Under the pieces are notes generated by a model. That model searched no databases, had not been told where the DNA came from, and saw nothing but the letters and a program-made list of their open reading frames with translations. This document shows, in pieces, positions 7,512 through 16,823 of a stretch of DNA of 41,653 bases; positions within the stretch are counted from its first letter, which is position 1; each line of letters opens with the position of its first letter. The stretch lies in contig JACRLC010000021.1 in the NCBI GenBank assembly GCA_016235425.1, forward strand, positions 1-41,653, written 5' to 3'. The stretch is from Chloroflexota bacterium. GTDB taxonomy: Bacteria; Chloroflexota; Anaerolineae; Anaerolineales; Villigracilaceae. The position numbers and the translations under genes are program-made.

Positions 7512-8651
7512 TCACCCCAACAACGGAGTGAGCCGGGTCATCAACATTTCCCAATTTTCAAAGTGAGGCACGCCAGCTTTGTCGAACGCAGCGGCTTTGG
7601 ATTCGCTCCCTGATGTCAACCCAAAGGCGCGGACGGTCACATCCAACCCTGCTTTTTGTAAAACTTCGCCAGCACCCCAGGTTGAGCGAATTCCGCCCAT
7701 TGTATCTTCAACGACCATCAACTCAAACGAGCGTGGCAAACTCGAGAACACACTGTTTAATTGACCTGTCTGTTGCCAATCGGCGGCGGCCTGGATGGCG
7801 GGCCACTCTTCGCCTGTAAATGCCGCGGCGGTTGCGGCCAGAGCCTGGACAGGCGAGGGTTTCAACAAAGCCGCGGCGTCAAGCCCGCGTTCTTTTGCGA
7901 GATATTCCAATCGTCCATAGCCAATGAGAGGGATATCAGGGAGGCCGACAAGTTCCAGTGCGTTCTCCGCTTCGGGCGCGTACCCGACGTGAGAAGTATC
8001 CACCTCCCGCGGCGGCGCGGATGGGCGCGCGGTGATGGATGCCAGATATACATCAGGCTGGCACAGCTTTTCCAGAATCGCTTCGTTGAGATTGGACTTG
8101 TCATGCGAATATAAAAATGATTCCGTCTCCACTTCCGCGGGCAGGTTGTACGTCTCGCTGAACACGCGGCTTCCAAGTGAATAATGCTGGAACAGGCGGG
8201 TCGTATGTGAAAAATTGACATTGCGCGAATCGTGCAGAAGGCTTCGACGCAAGTCTGCTGGAATAAACGGGAAGCATCCGTGTTGCAGGGCGGACTCGGT
8301 TGGATATATATCTGGTAGTACCTCAAACTCAGGGACAGTCACATCGCCCGGCACATATCCATTCATCCTGCGGCCAATCTCCGCCGCGGCGGAGGCCAAA
8401 TCAGAGGGGAGCTTGGCTTCAGGCCAGTGCGAGAGAATGTCATTCCACGCCGCACCGAGCAAAACGGGAACCATGTCCCATTCGCTGAAAATGCCGTGCT
8501 TTTCCAGTTCGGCAATCTTCTCTTCGTGGAAATCAAAATGAGGCACGCCCATCAAACCGGCAAAATAATTCAACGTGGCGTGCAGGGCGGCGCGGTACCC
8601 GCCAGGGTTTACCAACACGCCATCAACATCAAGCAGGATTACCTTCTTCAT
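7512..8651 (-). CDS. HAD-superfamily phosphatase, candidate histidinol-phosphate phosphatase
   Basis: 379 residues with all four HAD motifs: I, LLDVDGVLV (Asp8 nucleophile, Asp10); II, ITARP (Thr207); III, LLKPSP (Lys264); IV, VVEDTMGG (Glu315-Asp316). A large cap/insert fills residues about 20-190, making it longer than ordinary HAD phosphatases. Its ATG overlaps the hisE stop (ATGA at 8648-8651), so it is the last gene of the his operon and translationally coupled to hisE. The operon's HisB lacks the N-terminal phosphatase of the fused enterobacterial enzyme, and no other histidinol-phosphate phosphatase is in the window. Family and fold are seen; the histidinol-phosphate activity is inferred from context only. 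Confidence 0.85.
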   Translation of the reverse strand: MKKVILLDVDGVLVNPGGYRAALHATLNYFAGLMGVPHFDFHEEKIAELEKHGIFSEWDMVPVLLGAAWNDILSHWPEAKLPSDLASAAAEIGRRMNGYVPGDVTVPEFEVLPDIYPTESALQHGCFPFIPADLRRSLLHDSRNVNFSHTTRLFQHYSLGSRVFSETYNLPAEVETESFLYSHDKSNLNEAILEKLCQPDVYLASITARPSAPPREVDTSHVGYAPEAENALELVGLPDIPLIGYGRLEYLAKERGLDAAALLKPSPVQALAATAAAFTGEEWPAIQAAADWQQTGQLNSVFSSLPRSFELMVVEDTMGGIRSTWGAGEVLQKAGLDVTVRAFGLTSGSESKAAAFDKAGVPHFENWEMLMTRLTPLLG

Positions 8652-8923
8652 CGGTGACGCTTCTCCAATTCAGCCAGAATATCTGCCGGGGACAATCCAC
8701 GTGCGGCGAGCAAAACAAGCGTATGATACGTCAAATCGGCGACTTCCTCAATCAGGCGTTTATCATCCTGCGCCAGGGCGGCCACCACCACTTCTGTGCC
8801 TTCTTCGCCGACCTTCTGCGCGATTTTGGGCAGGCCCTCTTCAAACAGACTCGACGTGTACGATTTTTCGGTTGGGTTGTCCTTGCGGTCTTTAATTACG
8901 TCAAACAGCCATTGAATGCTCAT
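8648..8923 (-). CDS. hisE: Phosphoribosyl-ATP pyrophosphohydrolase
   Basis: 91 residues from ATG 8923, which has GAGG 6 nt upstream; an in-frame extension to 9067 runs through hisI and a repeat and is not used. HisE hydrolyses phosphoribosyl-ATP to phosphoribosyl-AMP, the second step of histidine synthesis, in the cytoplasm. The MazG-like helical fold shows in the motifs SYTSSLFEEGLPKIAQKVGEEGTEVV and EEVADLTYHTLVLLAARG, with the acidic metal-binding residues (EEGTE, EEVAD). It is a stand-alone protein, not fused to HisI. Its stop overlaps the start of the HAD gene. Confidence 0.93.
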   Translation of the reverse strand: MSIQWLFDVIKDRKDNPTEKSYTSSLFEEGLPKIAQKVGEEGTEVVVAALAQDDKRLIEEVADLTYHTLVLLAARGLSPADILAELEKRHR

Positions 8924-8943
8924 GATTTTCCTCATAAAGGATA

Positions 8944-8983
8944 ATTCGTCCTTCGACTGCGCTTCGCTCCGCTCAGGACGAAT
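8944..8983. repeat. Palindromic repeat between hisI and hisE
   Basis: ATTCGTCC (8944-8951) and GGACGAAT (8976-8983) enclose CTTCGACTGCGCTTCGCTCC, a GC-rich imperfect palindrome of the CTTCGAC...CTCAGG type. The hisI stop codon (8973-8975) lies inside it. Confidence 0.75.
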
Positions 8984-9302
8984 AAACGCGATAAAAACAA
9001 CTTCGATTTCCAGTGTGACAAGCCGGCCCTGTGGGATGGACACGCACGAGCAGAGTATCCGCATCACAATCCACGCGGACTTCGACCACGCGCTGGATGT
9101 TTCCCGATGCGGCGCCCTTGTGCCACAGTTCGCCGCGACTGCGTGACCAAAAGTGAGTCTCGCCTTTCTCCAAAGTGAGCCGCAAAGATTCTTCGTTCAT
9201 GTAAGCCAGCATCAACACTTCGTTGGTGTCTGCATCCTGCACAATGGCAGGGACGAGTCCGTTGGCATCAAATTTGATTTTTTCAATCAAAACTGTTTTC
9301 AT
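8973..9302 (-). CDS. hisI: Phosphoribosyl-AMP cyclohydrolase
   Basis: 109 residues from ATG 9302; a TTG at 9347 is possible but less likely. HisI opens the adenine ring of phosphoribosyl-AMP (third step). It shows the conserved [12 protein letters not shown], the [16 protein letters not shown] block, the Zn/Mg-binding [12 protein letters not shown], and the cysteines of [11 protein letters not shown]. The final residues (about SS and the stop) are encoded by the palindromic repeat at 8944-8983, so the original 3' end may have been replaced. The gene lies 53 bp after hisF, and the ribosome site is weak. Confidence 0.92.
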
Positions 9303-9355
9303 CTCACCATCCGTTTCCAATCCGTCTATCCGATTCGCCGAAGGCAATCCGTTGA

Positions 9356-10117
9356 CTACATTCTCACAGGCACGCCCAACGCCTGCAACCGCCTCTTCAA
9401 CTCAGGAATGCGTAGTTTACCATCATGAAAAAGCGACGCGGCCAGCGCGGCGTCTGCTTCGCCGTTTGTCAGCACTTCCGCAAAATGGGATGGCGTCCCC
9501 GCGCCGCCCGAAGCAATCACCGGAACCGACACGGCTTGAGCGATGGCCCGCGTCAATTCGATGTCATATCCGGCCAATGTTCCATCCGCATCCATGCTGG
9601 TGAGCAGGATTTCGCCCGCGCCAAGCTCCACGCCGCGCACTGCCCACTCGACCGCGTCCAGCCCAGTTGGAATCCGCCCGCCGTTGACGTAGACTTCCCA
9701 GCCCGCCGCGTCCTCGCGTCGACACGCGTCAATGGCGAGCACGATACACTGCGCGCCGAAACGCGACGCGCCTTCGGATAAAAGCTCCGGCGTCCGCACC
9801 GCCGCAGAGTTGATGCTGATTTTGTCGGCGCCGGCCAGCAACAAGCGGCGCATATCGTCCGCGGTTCTGATTCCGCCGCCGACCGTCAACGGCATGAAGA
9901 CGGTATCAGCCACGCGCCCGACCAAATCCAACGTGGTTTCGTGGCCTTCGTGTGTGGCAGAAATATCGAGAAAGACCAACTCGTCCGCGCCTTGCTCATC
10001 GTAAAGCCGCGCCTGCTCAACGGGGTCGCCCGCGTCACGCAGATTTACAAAATTCACACCCTTCACCACACGCCCATCTTTGATGTCGAGGCAGGGGATG
10101 ATTCGTTTTGTCAGCAT
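9356..10117 (-). CDS. hisF: Imidazole glycerol phosphate synthase, cyclase subunit
   Basis: 253 residues from ATG 10117, with AAGGAG 6 nt upstream. This (beta-alpha)8 barrel pairs with HisH to form imidazole glycerol phosphate and AICAR from PRFAR and ammonia. Asp11 in [13 protein letters not shown] and the aspartate of LAIDACR are the catalytic pair. Phosphate-binding loops are [10 protein letters not shown] and [11 protein letters not shown]. The length is normal. The 10 bp to hisA are filled by the end of a long palindromic repeat. Confidence 0.95.
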
Positions 10118-10127
10118 GAAAATCTCC

Positions 10128-10913
10128 TTACGCTCCCTCATCCCCAGCCCTTCCCCCTCTGGGGGAAGGGAGTTTTCCCCTCTCCCTTCGGGAGAGGGTT
10201 AGGGTGAGGGACTCTTTCAAATCCACCGCCCCCTCATACAACGCGCGGCCAATGATGACTCCGGCCAAACCAGCTTCCCGCGCGGCGCGCACATCGTCCA
10301 AAGTGTGTACACCGCCAGAAGCGATTACGTCAAGACCGCTCACATCAGCCAACTCGCGCGTAGCACTGATATTTAACCCACCGCCCAAACCGTCCCGGCT
10401 GATATCTGTGAAAATAATGGTACGCAGGCCCAAAGTCCGCATTTGACGCGCTGTTTCAGACGCGGAAACTCCGCTTTCCGCCTGCCATCCATGCAGGCGG
10501 ACCATGCCGTTTCGCGCGTCGATTCCTACAGCGATTTTTTCTGCGCCAACTTTTTTTATTGCAGTGACAATCACATCGGGTTGTTCAATTGCAAGCGTGC
10601 CAAGTATTGCGCGGCTCACGCCCAACTCAATCACACGCTCAATCGCGTCGAGCGAACGCAGTCCGCCGCCAAACTGAACCTGTGCGCCAAGTTTCAAAAT
10701 TGCCTCAAGCGCGGAACGATTCGCGTCATCGCCCTCGCCGAACGCACCATCCAAATTGACAACGTGCAGCCAGCGCGCGCCCGCACCCAGCCAGCGGCGC
10801 GCCGTCTCAGCCGGGTCGTCACTGTAACTCGTCAGGCGCGCCGGGTCGCCTTCCTGCAAACGCACCACACGGCCGTTTCGCAAATCAATCGCCGGAAAAA
10901 TTTCAAAGCTCAT
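10128..10913 (-). CDS. hisA: ProFAR isomerase
   Basis: 261 residues; typical HisA has about 240-245. It catalyses the Amadori rearrangement of ProFAR to PRFAR. The barrel starts [16 protein letters not shown] (catalytic Asp10) and has FGGGLRS, the second acid in FTDISRDG, and [10 protein letters not shown]. The last roughly 27 residues (from [12 protein letters not shown]) are encoded entirely by a repeat (10135-10210), so the natural C-terminus has been replaced or extended by a mobile palindrome. ATGA overlap with hisH (10910-10913) indicates translational coupling. Confidence 0.95.
10135..10210. repeat. 76-bp double-hairpin repeat, copy 1
   Basis: Two adjacent palindromes, CCCTTCCCCCTCTGGGGGAAGGG-like and CCTCTCCCTTCGGGAGAGG-like, bounded by CCCTCATCCCCA and GGGTGAGGG. 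An inverted copy lies at 23621-23693. This copy encodes the C-terminal tail of HisA. Confidence 0.85.
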
Positions 10914-11524
10914 GCCGCCTCCAAAAAGTTTTTCAAAATCCGCAAGCCCACCAACTGGCTTTTCTCCGGGTGGAATTGCACACCGAAAATATTTTCACGG
11001 CGCACCGCGCACGCGTAGGGCAGGCCGTAATTTGTGGTTGCAAGAACGTCGGATGAATTCCACGGCTGACAGTAATACGAGTGATTGAAATAGACATACG
11101 CCCCGGAGAGGACTCCGTTAAACAGGGTCGCATCTTTCTCGACCTCAACCTGATTCCACCCCGTATGCGGAATCTTGATCCCGGGCATTTTCTGGAAATG
11201 CACCACTCGCCCGGGCAATAATCCAAGCCCCGCGTGTTGACCCATCTCTTCGCCAACGTCAAATAACGCTTGCATCCCAACACAGATTCCAAACAATGGG
11301 ACGCCGCGCTCCGCGACATCTTTGACAGCAGACTCCAGCCCGCGCACACGCAAACCATCCATAAAATCGCCGAACGCACCCACGCCAGGCAATACCACAC
11401 GCCTGCCCGATAAAACTTTCTGCGGGTCATCAGTGCGTAACACATTCGCGCCAACACTCTCCAACGCCTTTTGCACGGAACGGAGATTGCCTGTGCCAGC
11501 ATCAATCAGAACAACATCATTCAT
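10910..11524 (-). CDS. hisH: Imidazole glycerol phosphate synthase, glutaminase subunit
   Basis: 204 residues, class I glutamine amidotransferase. It releases ammonia from glutamine for HisF. The catalytic triad is visible: Cys81 in FGICVGMQ, His185 and Glu187 in VQFHPEKSQ. The N-terminus IDAGTGNLRSV and the PGVGAFGDFM oxyanion region are typical. Start at 11524 with AAGGAAG about 7 nt upstream. Its 3' end overlaps hisA by 4 bp; upstream is a long perfect hairpin separating it from hisB. Confidence 0.95.
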   Translation of the reverse strand: MNDVVLIDAGTGNLRSVQKALESVGANVLRTDDPQKVLSGRRVVLPGVGAFGDFMDGLRVRGLESAVKDVAERGVPLFGICVGMQALFDVGEEMGQHAGLGLLPGRVVHFQKMPGIKIPHTGWNQVEVEKDATLFNGVLSGAYVYFNHSYYCQPWNSSDVLATTNYGLPYACAVRRENIFGVQFHPEKSQLVGLRILKNFLEAA

Positions 11525-11539
11525 TGATTACTTCCTTCT

Positions 11540-11590
11540 GTAACGCGAGATTTATCTCGCCTTACGCAAGCGAGATAAATCTCGCGTTAC
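11540..11590. repeat. Perfect 21-bp inverted repeat between hisB and hisH
   Basis: The arms 11540-11560 and 11570-11590 are perfectly complementary (21 bp) around CTTACGCAA. Each arm is itself palindromic (GCGAGAT...ATCTCGC). The hisB stop codon (11587-11589) lies in the right arm. No T-tract follows, so it is more likely a mobile palindrome than a terminator, although it would form a strong intercistronic hairpin in the mRNA. Confidence 0.9.
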
Positions 11591-12174
11591 AACATCCCCT
11601 TCGTGGATGGGATTGCTCCTGCGCGGCGCGGGTCGAGTTGAGTTGCGGAATCCAATGCGCGCGCCCAGGCTTTGAAGAGGGCTTCGGCCTGGTGATGGTC
11701 GTCGCGGCCATAAAGCACGCGGGCATGCAAATTGCATCGCGCCGTTACAGCAAACGACTCGAAGAAATGCGGAAACAAAGTGGTTGGAATATTTCCAACA
11801 TAAGGCGCGTGCCATTCAGCTTGAACCACTGCATAAGGCCGCCCGGACAAATCCACTGCAACGTGTGCCAGTGTCTCATCCATCGGTGCGAAGCAATCAC
11901 CCATGCGGACAATGCCCCTGCGGTCAGCAAGCGCCGCGTCGAAAGCCTGTCCCAGCGCCAGTGCCACATCTTCGACGGTGTGATGCGTGTCAATGTGAAG
12001 GTCGCCCTTTGCCTGCATGGATAAATCAAACAACCCATGAACCGCAAGATGCGTCAGCATGTGGTCGAGGAAGCCAATGCCCGTGGAAATTTCGTGCCTG
12101 CCCGTTCCATCCAAATCCAGTTTGATTGCAATCTGTGTTTCGCTTGTTTGACGGGAAATTTCAGATATTCGCAT
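11587..12174 (-). CDS. hisB: Imidazoleglycerol-phosphate dehydratase
   Basis: 195 residues, the monofunctional dehydratase without the N-terminal histidinol-phosphatase of E. coli HisB. It converts imidazole glycerol phosphate to imidazole acetol phosphate. The Mn-binding histidine and glutamate clusters are clear: [48 protein letters not shown] sits 5-6 nt before ATG 12174. It is separated from the upstream hisC by about 930 bp that contain an oppositely oriented toxin-antitoxin pair. Confidence 0.95.
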
Positions 12175-12198
12175 GTTTGCTCCTTTTCATTCCATCGC

Positions 12199-12387
12199 CG
12201 TTGGTCGAGTAGACACGAGCTATCCTTGCGAGCGGCCTATCGCCCTGCCCTGGCGGGCTGGGCCAGGGAGACCACCACATTTTCAAGCAACATTTTGTTT
12301 TCACGCAACCTGTTGGCCTCGATACAGCGGCAGAGGTTGAGTAGTTCTGCAAGAGTGTATCGAAACCCGCCGCCTACTCGACCAACG
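12199..12387. repeat. Element with 14-bp inverted ends, between hisB and yefM
   Basis: CGTTGGTCGAGTAG (12199-12212) and CTACTCGACCAACG (12374-12387) are perfect inverted repeats 161 bp apart. Next to the right arm is a TTTCGATACAC-type sequence on the minus strand, as in dispersed TCGAGTAG...TATCGAAA repeats. No target duplication is evident. A 72-codon minus-strand frame crosses it but looks like repeat translation. With the TA promoter, this fills the 12175-12494 gap. Confidence 0.6.
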
Positions 12388-12439
12388 AGTTGTTTTTGAA
12401 CAACCTGTCTGGCAGCTGGATATCGGGCTAAACTTACTC

Positions 12440-12482
12440 TTGACATTTTAATCATTTAGCCGTACAGTACTTCTGTACAGAA
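12440..12482 (+). promoter_or_regulatory. Promoter and YefM-type operator of yefM-yoeB
   Basis: TTGACA (12440-12445), a 17-nt spacer and TACAGT (12463-12468) form a near-consensus sigma-70 promoter. The perfect palindrome TTCTGTACAGAA (12471-12482) contains the TGTACA core bound by YefM in E. coli, with a second GTACAG half overlapping the -10 box. Binding here would block transcription, which fits autorepression by the antitoxin complex. Confidence 0.75.
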
Positions 12483-12494
12483 TGGAGAACCTTT

Positions 12495-12785
12495 ATGACT
12501 ATCGAATTCACCTACACCAGCGCTCGTGAACAACTCGCCAGCCTGCTCGACCGTGTCACAAAAGACCGCGAGGTCATTATCATTCAGCGGCGCGGCTACG
12601 AGGACGTTGCCATGATTTCGGCTGATGAACTCGCCAGCCTGACTGAAACCGCTTATCTTATGCGTTCACCGCAAAACGCCGAGCGGATTTTGTCCGCTTT
12701 AGCGCGCGCCTTGAAGAATGAAGGCCAATCACAAAGCATGGACGACTTGCGCCGCGAGGTGGGGCTTGAAACCAAAAAAGCGTGA
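12495..12785 (+). CDS. yefM: Antitoxin of YefM/Phd family
   Basis: 96 residues, the normal size. The N-terminal DNA-binding domain is recognisable (FTYTSAREQLASLLDRVTKDREVIIIQRRGYEDVAMISADELASL), and a C-terminal tail that would wrap the toxin follows. GGAG lies 7 nt before ATG. The gene overlaps the toxin by 20 nt. The pair sits inside the his operon on the opposite strand, between hisC and hisB, so his read-through RNA would be antisense to it. The operator upstream matches the YefM recognition core. Confidence 0.9.
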   Translation: MTIEFTYTSAREQLASLLDRVTKDREVIIIQRRGYEDVAMISADELASLTETAYLMRSPQNAERILSALARALKNEGQSQSMDDLRREVGLETKKA

Positions 12786-13041
12786 AGCGGTCTTCCAGCG
12801 AGAGTTCATCGAGGATTTGCGATATTGGGTCGAAACTGACCGTAAACTGGCTTTGCGCGCTTTTGAGTTGATTGACACAATCCTGCGCGGCCCATTTGAA
12901 GGGGTTGGAAAACCCGAGCCTCTAAAATATATTGCTCCTGGTTGTTGGTCGCGGCGGTTGACACAGGAACATCGCGTCGTCTACCTCGTGCGCGATAACC
13001 GAATTGACTTTTTGCAGGCAAGATATCATTACAGCAAATAA
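12766..13041 (+). CDS. yoeB: Toxin of YoeB/Txe family, mRNA interferase
   Basis: 91 residues from the likely TTG start at 12766, with GAGGTGG just upstream. An ATG at 12718 would add 16 residues unlike any YoeB. YoeB is a RelE-fold endoribonuclease that cleaves mRNA in the ribosomal A site. Family hallmarks: EDLRYWVETDRK, GPFEGVGKPEPLKY, WSRRLTQEHRVVYLV and the C-terminal ARYHYSK, supplying the Glu, Arg and His-Tyr catalytic residues. It therefore looks intact. Overlap with yefM couples toxin synthesis to antitoxin. Confidence 0.9.
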   Translation: MKPKKREAVFQREFIEDLRYWVETDRKLALRAFELIDTILRGPFEGVGKPEPLKYIAPGCWSRRLTQEHRVVYLVRDNRIDFLQARYHYSK

Positions 13042-13090
13042 TTATTTGTGGAATCCAACGCCCCGACGTTGGACTGCCGAAGTCAGGAGA

Positions 13091-13137
13091 CCCTTCGACG
13101 AGCTCACCTGTGCCTGCGGCACTGGCGCAGGCAGGAC
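13091..13137. repeat. Palindromic repeat at the hisC 3' end
   Basis: CCCTTCGACGAGCTCACCTG followed by TGCCTGCGGCACTGGCGCAGGCAGG, of the same CTTCGAC/GAGCTCA class as 2019-2041. The hisC stop (13104-13106) and its last roughly 10 codons lie inside it. Confidence 0.7.
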
Positions 13138-14237
13138 GGCGCTTCGGACTCCGATTTCAACGCTTTCAATAAAATATCTGTATCCTGCGGCCTCCCTACG
13201 CTGACACGAATGTGGTCGCGCAGACCTGGTTTGTTGAAATAACGCACGAAAATCCCGAACTCATTCGCCAATCGCGCCTTGAGTTTGGACGCGTCTCGTT
13301 CGATAACATGGCAAAGGATAAAATTCGATTGCGTGGGATACGGCCGCAAATACGGAATTTCCTGCAACTTCGCAAACAGACGTGCCCGTTCATTTATTAA
13401 ACGAGCGACAACATCCGTCAACTCATCTACATGCGCCAAAGAGACCTGCGCCGCCACACTCGCCGCTACATTGACGTTGTACGGTTGCTTGGCTTTCCAC
13501 AACACCGGCATCAGCCACGCTGGGAATGCGCCATACCCCACGCGCAGGCCGGCCAGCCCCGCCCACTTGCTAAACGTGCGAAGCACAACCAAATTTTCAC
13601 GCGCTGGAACTTCGCGAATGCGGCTCAAGTCAGCGCCCAGGTTCTCGCCAGCAAACTCGATGTAGGCTTCGTCCAACACCACGAGCACGGGCAGGTTCAG
13701 CAACGAGTCAATTGTTTTCGAGTCAAGGACTGAGCCATCCGGGTTATTTGGCGTGGCAACAAAAAGCATCTTTGGGCGATGAGTTTCTACTACTTGGCGA
13801 ATGGCTTCCACATCCAACGAAAAATCCGCGCGTCGTGGGACTTCAATCACTCTTGCCGCGTTCAACTCAGCATCGAAGGCATACATCCCAAAAGTCGGCG
13901 GACAGGAAAGGATGCAATCGCCTGGTTCCAAAAATACTCGCATCAGTAAATCGAGCAATTCATCCGCGCCCGCCCCAGCCAAAAGATATTCCATCGGCAC
14001 GCCCGTGAACGCCGCGAGCGATGTCCGCAAAGCGCGGCTTTCAGGGTCGGGATAAATGTGTGGGAAATTCAATTTGCCAAGCGCCTCGCGGACAACGGTC
14101 AACGGGCCGTAGGGATTCTCGTTCGCATCCAGTTTGACGATTTGCGAAGGCTCGCGTCCCAGCCGCGCGGAGAGCACTTCAAACGGCTCGATAGGCGTAT
14201 ATGGCGGGAGAGATTCAAGATGAGGGCGGATGTTCAT
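13104..14237 (-). CDS. hisC: Histidinol-phosphate aminotransferase
   Basis: 377 residues from ATG 14237, with GGAGAG 6 nt upstream; an extension to 14270 is not needed. This fold-type I PLP enzyme converts imidazole acetol phosphate to histidinol phosphate. Seen: KLDANENPYGP (35-45), ATPNNPDGS (161-169), Asp189 in VVLDEAY, and Schiff-base Lys224 in RTFSKWAGLAGLRVGYG. The C-terminal APSCLRQCRRHR is encoded by the palindromic repeat at 13091-13137 and is not native. It follows hisG by 93 bp and precedes the inserted TA locus. Confidence 0.93.
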   Translation of the reverse strand: MNIRPHLESLPPYTPIEPFEVLSARLGREPSQIVKLDANENPYGPLTVVREALGKLNFPHIYPDPESRALRTSLAAFTGVPMEYLLAGAGADELLDLLMRVFLEPGDCILSCPPTFGMYAFDAELNAARVIEVPRRADFSLDVEAIRQVVETHRPKMLFVATPNNPDGSVLDSKTIDSLLNLPVLVVLDEAYIEFAGENLGADLSRIREVPARENLVVLRTFSKWAGLAGLRVGYGAFPAWLMPVLWKAKQPYNVNVAASVAAQVSLAHVDELTDVVARLINERARLFAKLQEIPYLRPYPTQSNFILCHVIERDASKLKARLANEFGIFVRYFNKPGLRDHIRVSVGRPQDTDILLKALKSESEAPSCLRQCRRHR

Positions 14238-14330
14238 GCGAATCTCTCCGAGGGTGAGAGTGCATCGCACTGCCTGGAAACGGAATCAAATTGGAGCGGG
14301 GAAAGAAGCGGGGTTTTCATCCTCACATCC

Positions 14331-15332
14331 TCACTTATTCAACGCAGCCAACATCGCACTGTAGCGCGGCGGCTCTTCTTCAAAAATATATGTAATCGGC
14401 GAGACGATAATCCCGCTCCCGCCAATGAGACGTAATTCGCCAACGGCTTGGGTGAGTTTGTCACGCCGCACGACGACGGAAACCGAATACCAACGCTGGT
14501 CACTTTCGCGGACGACAATCGGGCTGATGGTCGGCCCCTGCAACCCGCCGACGGTGGTTTCGCTAAACATCTTCTCCGCAATCGCTTCGGGACTCTCGCC
14601 GCGCATATTGGCAATCACGAGCAGGTTGTCTTTTGCGCGCAAGTGGGCTTCGATATATTCAAGCAAACGACGCGCCATCTCCAACGTTTCGGGCCGCGTC
14701 TGCAACGCTTTGCGGTTCGCAATCAAAGCGGCCTGCGAAGGCTGGATGACTCCGTCTTTCAACGGACGCAGACGGTTATCCTGCAAAGTCTGGCCGGAGG
14801 AGACGAGGTCTGAGATGATGTCGGCGTAGCCAATCGTCGGCGCGGTTTCGAGCGTGCCTTCGGCGGCAATCAAAGTATGAGGAATTTCATGCCGGTTAAG
14901 AAATCGTTCAGTGAGGACAGGAAACTTGGTCGCCACGCGCAATGGACGTTCAAGCGAAGCCGAAAAGGTTTTGAGTGAGGCAATGTCCGTCACCTGCTTC
15001 CATGATTCAGGCACAGCGAGCGTGAGCGCGCAATGACCAAACCCAAGCGCATCGTGCAAAACGAGAACATCGCCGTTTTCGCCGCGCTTCTCTTCGATAA
15101 CGTCGAGACCCGTGATGCCGAAGTCCACGCTTCCCTGCCGCACGCTGACCACGATATCGCCAGGCCGCTGAAAGATGACTCCCAAATCAGGCAGGGCAGG
15201 AAGTTCTGCCTGGTATTGCCGCGGGTTGGGCTTGAACACCGTCAGCCCCGCGGCGGAGAGAAAGCCGAGCGCCTGGTCTTGAAGGCGGCCTTTGGATGGG
15301 AGCGAGAGTCGAATGCTTGAGTTTGATTGCAT
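14331..15332 (-). CDS. hisG: ATP phosphoribosyltransferase, long form
   Basis: 333 residues. HisG condenses ATP with PRPP in the first, committed step. The N-terminal catalytic domains (about 5-215) include LSLPSKGRLQ, SVDFGITGLDVIEE and EGTLETAPTIGYADIISDLVSSG (PRPP loop). The C-terminal HisG_C domain (about 220-330, ending YIFEEEPPRY) is the allosteric ACT-like domain that binds histidine. Because it is the long form, no HisZ subunit is expected. Start at 15332 with AAGGAA upstream. It lies about 25 bp after the his attenuator terminator. Confidence 0.95.
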   Translation of the reverse strand: MQSNSSIRLSLPSKGRLQDQALGFLSAAGLTVFKPNPRQYQAELPALPDLGVIFQRPGDIVVSVRQGSVDFGITGLDVIEEKRGENGDVLVLHDALGFGHCALTLAVPESWKQVTDIASLKTFSASLERPLRVATKFPVLTERFLNRHEIPHTLIAAEGTLETAPTIGYADIISDLVSSGQTLQDNRLRPLKDGVIQPSQAALIANRKALQTRPETLEMARRLLEYIEAHLRAKDNLLVIANMRGESPEAIAEKMFSETTVGGLQGPTISPIVVRESDQRWYSVSVVVRRDKLTQAVGELRLIGGSGIIVSPITYIFEEEPPRYSAMLAALNK

Positions 15333-15356: not shown

Positions 15357-15381
15357 AAAAAACCCCGGTCAATGACCGGGG
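15357..15381 (-). terminator. his attenuator terminator
   Basis: In the minus-strand transcript CCCCGGTC (15381-15374) and GACCGGGG (15370-15363) form a perfect 8-bp GC-rich stem with an ATT loop, followed by six U (15362-15357). It lies between the histidine-rich leader frame and hisG. The leader segment at 15443-15433 (TGACCAGGCGG) mimics the terminator's 3' arm and can pair with its 5' arm (TGACC with GGTCA, plus GG-CC pairs), giving a competing antiterminator. Confidence 0.9.
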
Positions 15382-15409
15382 TCTGCTGAGCAAGTAGGTT
15401 GAACTGGAG

Positions 15410-15496
15410 TTAACCTTGTAAGCGCAGAGAAACCGCCTGGTCATTCAGGGGCTGGGTAAAATGATGGTGATGGATGTGCGCAAACAGAGTTTTCAT
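15410..15496 (-). CDS. hisL: his operon leader peptide
   Basis: 28 codons, ATG 15496 to TAA 15410. The peptide begins MKTLFAHIHHHHF, with five histidines in six consecutive codons (residues 7-12), and continues for 16 residues to ...RLQG. It has no Shine-Dalgarno sequence. The TATACT at 15507-15512 places transcription start within about 3 nt of the ATG, so translation is probably leaderless. A ribosome stalled on the His codons would leave 15443-15433 free to form the antiterminator; one that continues would cover it and let the terminator form. This is the established enterobacterial logic applied here by inference. Confidence 0.88.
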   Translation of the reverse strand: MKTLFAHIHHHHFTQPLNDQAVSLRLQG

Positions 15497-15506
15497 GTTA
15501 AGGCGC

Positions 15507-15512
15507 AGTATA
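15507..15512 (-). promoter_or_regulatory. his operon promoter, -10 box
   Basis: TATACT on the minus strand, 10 nt before the leader-peptide ATG. TATGCA with a 17-nt spacer is a weak -35 candidate. The divergent MFS promoter (-10 at 15555-15560) shares the same 75-bp region. Confidence 0.7.
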
Positions 15513-15554
15513 CCAACGACAGAAGCATTTGCATAGAGGAAATAATCAATCGTT

Positions 15555-15569: not shown

Positions 15570-16823
15570 ATGTTATCAAAAATCTTTGGTCATTCCGACA
15601 TCCCAAAACAATACCATTCCAACTTCCTCCACCTCTACTTCGATATCGCCTGGTTCGGTGTATTAAGCGGCTCCGCCATCAACTTCCTCAACATCTATGC
15701 CACGCGCCTCGGCGCAACCGGCCTGCAAATCGGCCTCATTGCCGCCATGTCTGCCGTCGTCAACCTCTTCCTCGCCATTCCCGCAGGCCGCTGGATCGAA
15801 AGACGCCACACGGGCCGCGCGGTCTTCTGGTCATCCATCTTCTTTCGCATCGGCTACCTTCTTTGGATTCCCCTCCCCTGGCTCTTCGACGAGCAGGGTC
15901 AAATCTGGGCGCTTATCGTCCTCACCTTTTTCATGGCAATTCCACTCACGCCCCTCGGCGTCGGCTTCAACGCCCTCTTCGCCGAAGCCGTCCCCGACCG
16001 CCACCGCGCCCACGTCGCCAGCATGCGCAACATCACCTTCGCCATTGCCTATATGACCACCTCCTTCGTCAGCGGTTACATCCTTGAACATGTCGCCTTC
16101 CCATCGGGTTATCAAATCATTTTTGGGATTGGGGCATTCGGCGCGGCGATGAGCAGTCTCCACATCTATTTTGTCAAACCCCTGCAAGCAGAATCCCCTG
16201 CGACTCTTTCCGCCCCTCAACTTGATTCCGCCAAAGGGACATCCTCGCCCCGAAACTTTATCTCCGCCCTCCGCCTCGACGTATGGTCAACCCCGTTTAG
16301 AAACGTTCTTCTCGCCCTGCTGGCATTCCATCTGACGCACTTCCTGACCAACCCCATCTACCCGTTGTACAACGTCCGCGTCCTCCAACTCAACGACGAC
16401 AACATCGGCACAGGCACCGCACTCTACTACCTGACCATGCTCATCGGCTCCTTCCGATTCACGCGCATTGCCCACCGTCTCGGCCACAAAAAAGTGACGG
16501 GCGTCGGCGTGGCAGGCATGGCAATCTACCCGTTCCTGCTGGCATTCGCGCACCAGGTCTGGCATTACTATGCCATCTCATTGCTTGGCGGCTTCACGTG
16601 GTCACTCGTCAACGGCGCGTATGCAAACTACATGCTCGAACGCATCCCCCCCACCGACCGGCCGTCGCACCTCGCGTGGTACACCATCATCCTGAATTTT
16701 TCCATTCTCGCGAGCTCCCTCATCGGCCCCCTCGTCGCCGACCAAATCGGACTCGCCGCCGCGCTCATTCTCTTCGCCGCCCTGCGCCTCCTCGCGGGCC
16801 TGGGCATTCTACGGTGGGGATGA
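15570..16823 (+). CDS. Major facilitator superfamily transporter
   Basis: 417 residues with about 11-12 hydrophobic helices in two halves. The loop after helix 2 (AGRWIERRHTGRAVF) resembles the MFS motif A region (GxxxDrxGrr). Further helices include IWALIVLTFFMAIPLTPLGV and LLRLLAG-type segments near the C-terminus. An inner-membrane secondary transporter; substrate not predictable. It is transcribed divergently from the his operon through a shared 75-bp promoter region, which could hint at co-regulation but does not prove it. It uses many CTC/GCC codons like its neighbours. Confidence 0.85.
   Translation: MLSKIFGHSDIPKQYHSNFLHLYFDIAWFGVLSGSAINFLNIYATRLGATGLQIGLIAAMSAVVNLFLAIPAGRWIERRHTGRAVFWSSIFFRIGYLLWIPLPWLFDEQGQIWALIVLTFFMAIPLTPLGVGFNALFAEAVPDRHRAHVASMRNITFAIAYMTTSFVSGYILEHVAFPSGYQIIFGIGAFGAAMSSLHIYFVKPLQAESPATLSAPQLDSAKGTSSPRNFISALRLDVWSTPFRNVLLALLAFHLTHFLTNPIYPLYNVRVLQLNDDNIGTGTALYYLTMLIGSFRFTRIAHRLGHKKVTGVGVAGMAIYPFLLAFAHQVWHYYAISLLGGFTWSLVNGAYANYMLERIPPTDRPSHLAWYTIILNFSILASSLIGPLVADQIGLAAALILFAALRLLAGLGILRWG

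Follow-up and report, generated by a model that had tools for sequence, protein, structure and literature searches.

The window, a stretch of 41,653 nucleotides (positions 1 to 41,653 of contig JACRLC010000021.1, assembly GCA_016235425.1, Villigracilaceae), carries a presumed histidine biosynthesis operon on its minus strand. NCBIfam models give the gene order hisG, hisC, hisB, hisH, hisA, hisF and hisI, and hisE (8648-9067) takes its name from its translated frame and position, not from NCBIfam. The hisG frame opens at an ATG at 15332, with AAGGA 7 nt ahead of it. A divergent frame, whose matches to MFS transporter models are weak and all below cut-off, begins at 15570, so that a gap of 237 nt contains the promoter and the leader. 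A YefM/YoeB-like toxin-antitoxin pair is encoded antisense within the operon, in the interval that separates hisC from hisB (12495-13041, plus strand); its toxin matches TIGR02116 at 103.5 bits, and its antitoxin scores below cut-off for YefM and above cut-off for the phd family. The window also holds an Rfam group II intron match at 38-130 on the plus strand (RF00029, 48.2 bits).

Read along the minus strand from 15512 to 15357, the gap presents a TATACT box, a 28-codon His-rich frame and an intrinsic terminator, after which hisG follows (Table 1). An earlier note on this DNA had described these parts, and its coordinates are correct on re-reading the sequence: TATACT is followed after 10 nt by an ATG opening 28 codons, with five His within six codons. 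The GC hairpin and U6 that it reported are likewise there, but the hairpin, ACCCCGGTC-ATT-GACCGGGGT, has 9 bp counting the outer A-U rather than 8. In the 5.0 Mb genome we count CAYCAYCAYCAY 64 times on the two strands together, and we take the layout not to be due to chance.

Table 1. Features of the his leader and operon, with positions in the window
Feature	Positions	Strand	Basis
-35-like hexamer TATGCA, weak	15530-15535	-	sequence; 17 nt before the -10 box
-10 box TATACT, TGG in front (extended -10)	15507-15512	-	sequence
Predicted 5' end, about 3 nt before the ATG	15497-15499	-	inferred from the profile of 120 leaders
Leader ORF, MKTLFAHIHHHHFTQPLNDQAVSLRLQG plus stop (ATG at 15496, stop TAA at 15412-15410)	15410-15496	-	sequence, conservation in relatives
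Regulatory His codons, CAC ATC CAT CAC CAT CAT (His at 15478-15476 and 15472-15461)	15461-15478	-	sequence; His specificity
Outer helix, 5' strand GCGCA, partner 15426-15422	15477-15481	-	MFE fold
Outer helix, 3' strand TGCGC, partly in the extended antiterminator too	15422-15426	-	folds
Segment 1, CCCCTG, 5' strand of the protector hairpin	15446-15451	-	RNAalifold hairpin
Segment 2, antiterminator strand and 3' strand of the protector	15433-15444	-	pairing with the terminator 5' arm
AGGTTAAC/GTT-C-AACCT hairpin over the leader stop codon	15396-15416	-	stalled-state fold, this genome
Terminator hairpin (segments 3 and 4)	15362-15382	-	covariation, 27 sequences
Terminator U-tract, U6	15357-15362	-	sequence
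hisG, first structural gene	14331-15332	-	NCBIfam TIGR00070, 169.5 bits
hisC, hisB, hisH, hisA, hisF, hisI, hisE, remainder of the presumed operon	8648-14270	-	NCBIfam except hisE

The earlier note had proposed comparing the regions upstream of hisG in Anaerolineae, and the comparison bears it out. HisG was detected in 51 of the 100 family genomes, 228 of the 296 class genomes and 192 of the 251 phylum genomes sampled. A short His-rich frame precedes hisG in 30/30 family loci listed, the window included, and a stricter script finds a terminator in 25 of these 30. Across family and class, the full layout is present in 74 of 131 hisG upstream regions (again counting the window), drawn from 13 family labels; 77 frames had been flagged, and three (L071, L074 and L083, the last with a weaker frame located closer) were dropped for a gap of more than 300 nt between frame and terminator or for want of a -10 box. 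An energy-based script places a terminator behind all 74 leaders, and behind all 70 scripted ones. Among the 57 loci in which no leader was counted, 27 have a same-strand frame of at least 126 aa ending no more than 45 nt from hisG and two (L036, L110) are too short to be judged; no leader stands in any of the 20 loci read from lineages f12, f17 and f45, and L076 is also among the 27. As a side observation, 49 of the 100 sampled family genomes gave no HisG match, as did 30 of the 65 near-complete ones, which suggests frequent histidine auxotrophy or another HisG.

Titled GTDB loci give a similar picture: among the best 80 of 257, which are mostly titled Anaerolineales, Anaerolineae or Chloroflexi, 71 have the leader, lying within 450 nt upstream in 70 and farther up in L160. 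The carriers include the isolates Longilinea arvoryzae, Ornatilinea apprima and Levilinea saccharolytica. No leader was counted in nine titled loci. In five of them (L200, L205, L206, L207, L212) another frame closely precedes hisG; L141 is truncated by a contig end, its terminator being visible; L197 combines a terminator with a weak His run; and L138 and L157 lack both a leader and a good terminator. The sets of loci overlap in part, and their 144 leaders reduce to 120 distinct ones. At a greater distance, no His leader was seen in the 32 hisG loci read outside the class (12 of 14 returned, plus 20); in 19 of those 20, hisG sits behind a frame of at least 165 aa no more than 111 nt upstream, so the head of the operon is not seen. 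Within the class, 20/20 loci with a short-form HisG have hisG behind another frame and no His leader, the frame at L340 being spurious. Separately, a metagenome-assembled contig titled Candidatus Zixiibacteriota (L180) encodes a 66% identical HisG behind a His leader of the same design, reflecting either mis-binning or transfer.

The enrichment is specific to histidine. We searched for short frames with TAnnnT 7-11 nt before the start and at least three of the same amino acid within seven residues, and found His in 70 of 129 upstream regions; any other amino acid reached at most 9/129, leaving His the sole enriched residue among the amino acids tested. Controls gave 1/387 shuffled regions and 2/129 on the opposite strand. 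A terminator kept without its His run, which the earlier note named as an outcome that would count against its reading, occurs only in part: L035/L197, L039, L042 and L083 retain a terminator while their run falls below threshold. L113 has a weak terminator and no His frame. The his attenuator is very probably real and widespread in Anaerolineae.

The leader can form competing helices, for which the earlier note had proposed folding it: the 171-nt leader folds with z = -3.1 (1/200 shuffles equally good), and alternative helices are found. In an alignment of 27 close leaders, the terminator is paired in 97.7% of cells with 22 double-change cells, and the antiterminator, which joins segment 2 to the terminator 5' arm, in 85.2% of cells with 13; on cells paired and covariation score, 0/500 shuffles match either helix. 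For the antiterminator, the number of doubly changed pairs is reached by 320/500 shuffles and the number of pair types by 439/500, because few columns vary. Antiterminator pairs 89:166 and 90:165 show double changes in six sequences each, and terminator pairs 166:172 (six sequences) and 165:173 (four) do likewise; columns 89/166/172 and 90/165/173 are thus double-changed in both helices, as an alternative three-way pairing requires. RNAalifold, unprompted, adds a protector hairpin at columns 81-84/91-94 (window 15449-15446 with 15439-15436), paired in 96.3% of cells, whose covariation consists of a single pair that changes from C-G to U-A in three sequences. The outer helix is paired in 87.0% of cells of the 27 sequences and covaries weakly; its GC pairs alternate, so that 79.5% still pair after a slide of two columns.

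In the window, the leader segment TGACCAGGCGG (15443-15433) pairs with the terminator 5' arm as the earlier note had claimed, although the helix is longer than the roughly 9 bp it gave: the stalled-ribosome fold joins 15444-15422 to 15391-15372. The hairpin that it placed over the leader stop codon, AGGTTAAC, also exists, but as the apical part of this antiterminator in the window's fold and not as an additional hairpin. Across 74 leaders, the cognate duplex of leader and arm averages -13.9 kcal/mol versus -11.3 when partners are permuted among genomes, with 0/20,000 permutations as good; this permutation ignores kinship, and a rough correction that keeps one leader for each of 13 dissimilar arms leaves 179/20,000 as good. 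Taken singly, 36 of the 74 leaders fall in the best 5% of their own shuffles for this pairing and 38 do not. The pairing mostly begins 9-20 nt past the last His codon, often 13-17, in most leaders just beyond a stalled ribosome. Leaders differ in the reading frame of its GACCGG motif (17 have it in frame 0, 12 in frame 1 and 7 in frame 2), which indicates that the RNA is kept and the peptide is not.

We folded leaders without the terminator 3' arm under different ribosome positions; in the stalled state the mask reached 12 nt beyond the final His codon. Over 120 leaders, the terminator 5' arm pairs with the leader at a mean of 0.73 with a stalled ribosome, 0.40 with a ribosome at the stop codon and 0.43 with none, and dinucleotide shuffles give 0.46, 0.38 and 0.43. 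The stalled value, well above its control, agrees with the earlier claim that a stalled ribosome leaves the antiterminator segment free. The difference between the stalled and stop-codon states exceeds 0.2 in 82/120 leaders and in 27-40/120 of six shuffle sets; it is 0.2 or less in 38 leaders and reversed by more than 0.2 in four of the 120. In the stalled state, 67/120 leaders exceed all six of their own shuffles. The window leader gives 1.0 when stalled, 0.42 at the stop codon and 0.95 ribosome-free; since the last value resembles the stalled one, only a ribosome at the stop codon favours termination. The earlier note had such a ribosome mask 15443-15433, which we reject for the window, where 20 nt separate the segment from the stop codon; there the ribosome more probably acts by allowing the protector hairpin to form (15451-15446 with 15439-15433). 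In LPDRRAG-type relatives, where about 3 nt separate the segment from the stop, a stop-codon ribosome would cover the segment. At equilibrium with the full terminator, the terminator wins on average in each ribosome state (mean 0.82-0.85), with low values at the stop codon in the single leaders L010 and L021. These foldings are thermodynamic snapshots, and because the terminator wins in all states once its 3' arm exists, the decision must be kinetic. Computation recovers an amino-acid-rich leader frame, an intrinsic terminator, an antiterminator and a ribosome-dependent protector pairing, together with the conservation of these parts, their alternative pairing and its dependence on ribosome position.

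The promoter stands at a near-fixed distance from the leader. Aligned on the start codon, 120 distinct leaders show TTGnCnAA at -39 to -32, a 17-nt spacer and TATACT-like bases at -16 to -11, followed by C at -4 (0.72) and A at -3 (0.64); the window leader has T at -4 and A at -3. From TAnnnT to the leader start there are exactly 10 nt in 64 of the 120, 7 nt in 21 and 9 nt in 17, a count that is biased if taken alone because starts were picked with some weight for a -10-like hexamer 5-13 nt upstream. The -35 element and the C/A initiator played no part in that selection, yet appear in the profile. An SD-like 4-mer stands ahead of the leader start in 1/120 distinct leaders, compared with 40 of the 51 hisG genes whose possible starts a script could place, a test made more permissive by the several starts allowed. 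Given the usual distance from a -10 box to the transcription start, the predicted 5' UTR is 0-4 nt long, most often 3 nt. A near-leaderless frame is supported by the near-fixed distance to a sigma70-type promoter and by the absent Shine-Dalgarno sequence.

We propose that the locus is a ribosome-mediated transcription attenuator of the his operon, as the earlier note suggested, with a probability of roughly 0.9; the proposal is supported by conservation in family and class, covariation of the helices, the frame-independent antiterminator RNA with its GACCGG motif and ribosome-position-dependent folding. Transcription would start a few nucleotides 5' of the leader ATG, so that a ribosome would bind the nascent 5' end with no need of a Shine-Dalgarno sequence. 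With charged His-tRNA present, the ribosome would translate past the His codons and reach the stop; segment 1 (15451-15446) would then pair with segment 2 (15444-15433) as the protector, and the terminator (15382-15362) would form and end transcription before hisG. With charged His-tRNA scarce, the ribosome would stall on the His codons and cover segment 1, which, from the footprint size we assume, presumably lies under a ribosome stalled on the last of them; free segment 2 would then pair with the terminator 5' arm as it emerges, and RNA polymerase would continue into hisGCBHAFIE. We infer the transcription start, the termination efficiency and the histidine response from this arrangement.

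Other amino-acid operons of these genomes offer points of comparison. We read 24 of 25 hisD loci returned, leaving out a partial one. Two of them (L286, L294) have hisD on another contig than hisG, with its own His leader, -10 box and terminator upstream, and in L294 a 96-aa frame lies between leader and hisD; these two speak for the attenuator reading. The other 22, which count against it, have no leader, among them hisD of the window genome, which also lies apart from hisG. The trpE gene of the window genome is preceded by a T-box (L249, 3083-3440, minus strand, contig C100; RF00230 at 76.9 bits, below the gathering score of 93) that contains GGGTGGCACCACGAG, and the trpE upstream regions of two relatives share the GGGTGGCACCACG element. 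T-boxes in Chloroflexi are already known, as extracts of PMC3766115 state. A trpE T-box and a his attenuator in one genome make two kinds of amino-acid sensor comparable in one cell. No Trp-rich leader precedes trpE in 15 of the 16 loci read, and the frame found in L253 is spurious, having no -10 box. Before ilvB, 20 loci gave no convincing branched-chain leader; the frames in L273, L279 and L280 are weak and lack a good terminator.

Alternative accounts of the locus differ in how much of this they keep. The attenuator could be real without being near-leaderless, if transcription began farther upstream and gave a longer 5' UTR that still lacks a Shine-Dalgarno sequence, TATACT being incidental or a second promoter. 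The weak TATGCA of the window and the scoring of -10-like hexamers, which biases the spacing count, lend this some weight, but it has to contend with the unselected TTGnCnAA with its 17-nt spacer and the C/A initiator in the 120-leader profile, with a sharp spacing peak at 10 nt, and with an SD-like 4-mer that is nearly absent before leaders and common before hisG under the more permissive test; we consider it improbable.

Farther from the attenuator reading, a constitutive promoter and terminator might flank a His run that is a chance frame or a metal-binding peptide. The terminators retained with few His codons in L035, L039 and L042 fit this idea; the His-specific enrichment (70/129 regions against 1/387 shuffled), the covariation of alternative helices and a peptide that shifts frame past the His run while the RNA motif remains make it very improbable. 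Equally slight is the chance that the terminator answers to another sensor, such as a T-box, riboswitch or RNA-binding protein, with the leader frame secondary. The T-box before trpE means that T-boxes are available to this genome; at the his leader, by contrast, Rfam gives no match at gathering score, neither T-box nor the His leader RF00514 appears there even at E up to 10, and what is conserved is the His codons together with the surrounding helices. The search at that limit gave nine matches, all with low scores far short of gathering; we reject them as chance-level, including one to Trp_leader, which reached 14.8 bits where gathering requires 41. The ribosome-mediated attenuator remains the reading we prefer.

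How far its near-leaderless form belongs to the mechanism is a separate matter. We give even odds to the idea that the Anaerolineae his attenuator is a rigid cassette across many families, in which promoter and leader start are locked and initiation is always (nearly) leaderless, a deep-rooted lineage with leaderless initiation a working part of the sensor. Extracts of PMC3160421 report leaderless genes at a mean of 4.7% in the four of 12 Chloroflexi genomes showing any; because such genes are few in the phylum, leaderless initiation here would be functional in sensing rather than incidental to the host. If so, the first ribosome would load on the emerging 5' end, synchronising ribosome and polymerase.

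In the open-licence literature that we searched, no his attenuator is described for Chloroflexota, in keeping with the earlier note, which knew of no description in this phylum. Leader-peptide systems are known from Proteobacteria and Actinobacteria, to which Firmicutes were added, according to extracts of PMC2965389; those of PMC9413887 treat his attenuators in Firmicutes, name Proteobacteria and contain Chloroflexi solely in one reference title. A version common across one Chloroflexota class would add a distant phylum to leader-peptide attenuation, with covariation good enough to name its parts ahead of experiment. Because the distance between promoter and start codon is so constant, a role of leaderless initiation in sensing can be put to the test, and cultivated strains carry the attenuator.

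It was in enterobacteria that leader-peptide attenuation was elucidated first, and their ribosome-mediated hisL system is compared here. What the leaders share with hisL (RF00514) is a His-rich leader peptide, competing protector, antiterminator and terminator helices, and an intrinsic terminator of the his operon, a comparison drawn partly from extracts of PMC3896937 and PMC1183508. They differ in giving no RF00514 match even at E up to 10, in having 2-7 His in a cluster within a leader of 15-35 residues where hisL has seven consecutive His, in an antiterminator strand that for most leaders falls within the leader frame, and in having no Shine-Dalgarno sequence and a predicted 5' UTR of 0-4 nt. 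His leaders of Firmicutes have His-codon runs, terminator and antiterminator in common with ours and precede his genes (PMC9413887) or hisS/hisZ paralogues (PMC2965389); they belong to another phylum, and the extracts of both papers do not mention a leaderless arrangement.

The promoter geometry and the missing Shine-Dalgarno sequence agree with the leaderless leader frame of the earlier note, but such frames are already known in Corynebacterium, Sinorhizobium and Mycobacterium. Canestrari 2020 reportedly deals with those of the trpL and polycysteine kind. The ilvBNC transcript of Corynebacterium glutamicum starts one nucleotide before the leader start codon, has no ribosome-binding site and likewise uses three-hairpin attenuation (extracts of PMC11857589); it differs in responding to branched-chain amino acids and in belonging to Actinobacteria. 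Leaderless leader frames with an acting or proposed amino-acid attenuator are described, in extracts, for trpL of Sinorhizobium meliloti (PMC7298713) and for mycobacterial polycysteine frames (PMC9031893), with PMC4633059 a further source; these concern tryptophan or cysteine, in other phyla. As far as our searches reach, the Anaerolineae his leader would be a ribosome-mediated attenuator of a kind already known, found in a lineage new to it and in a conserved form predicted to be near-leaderless.
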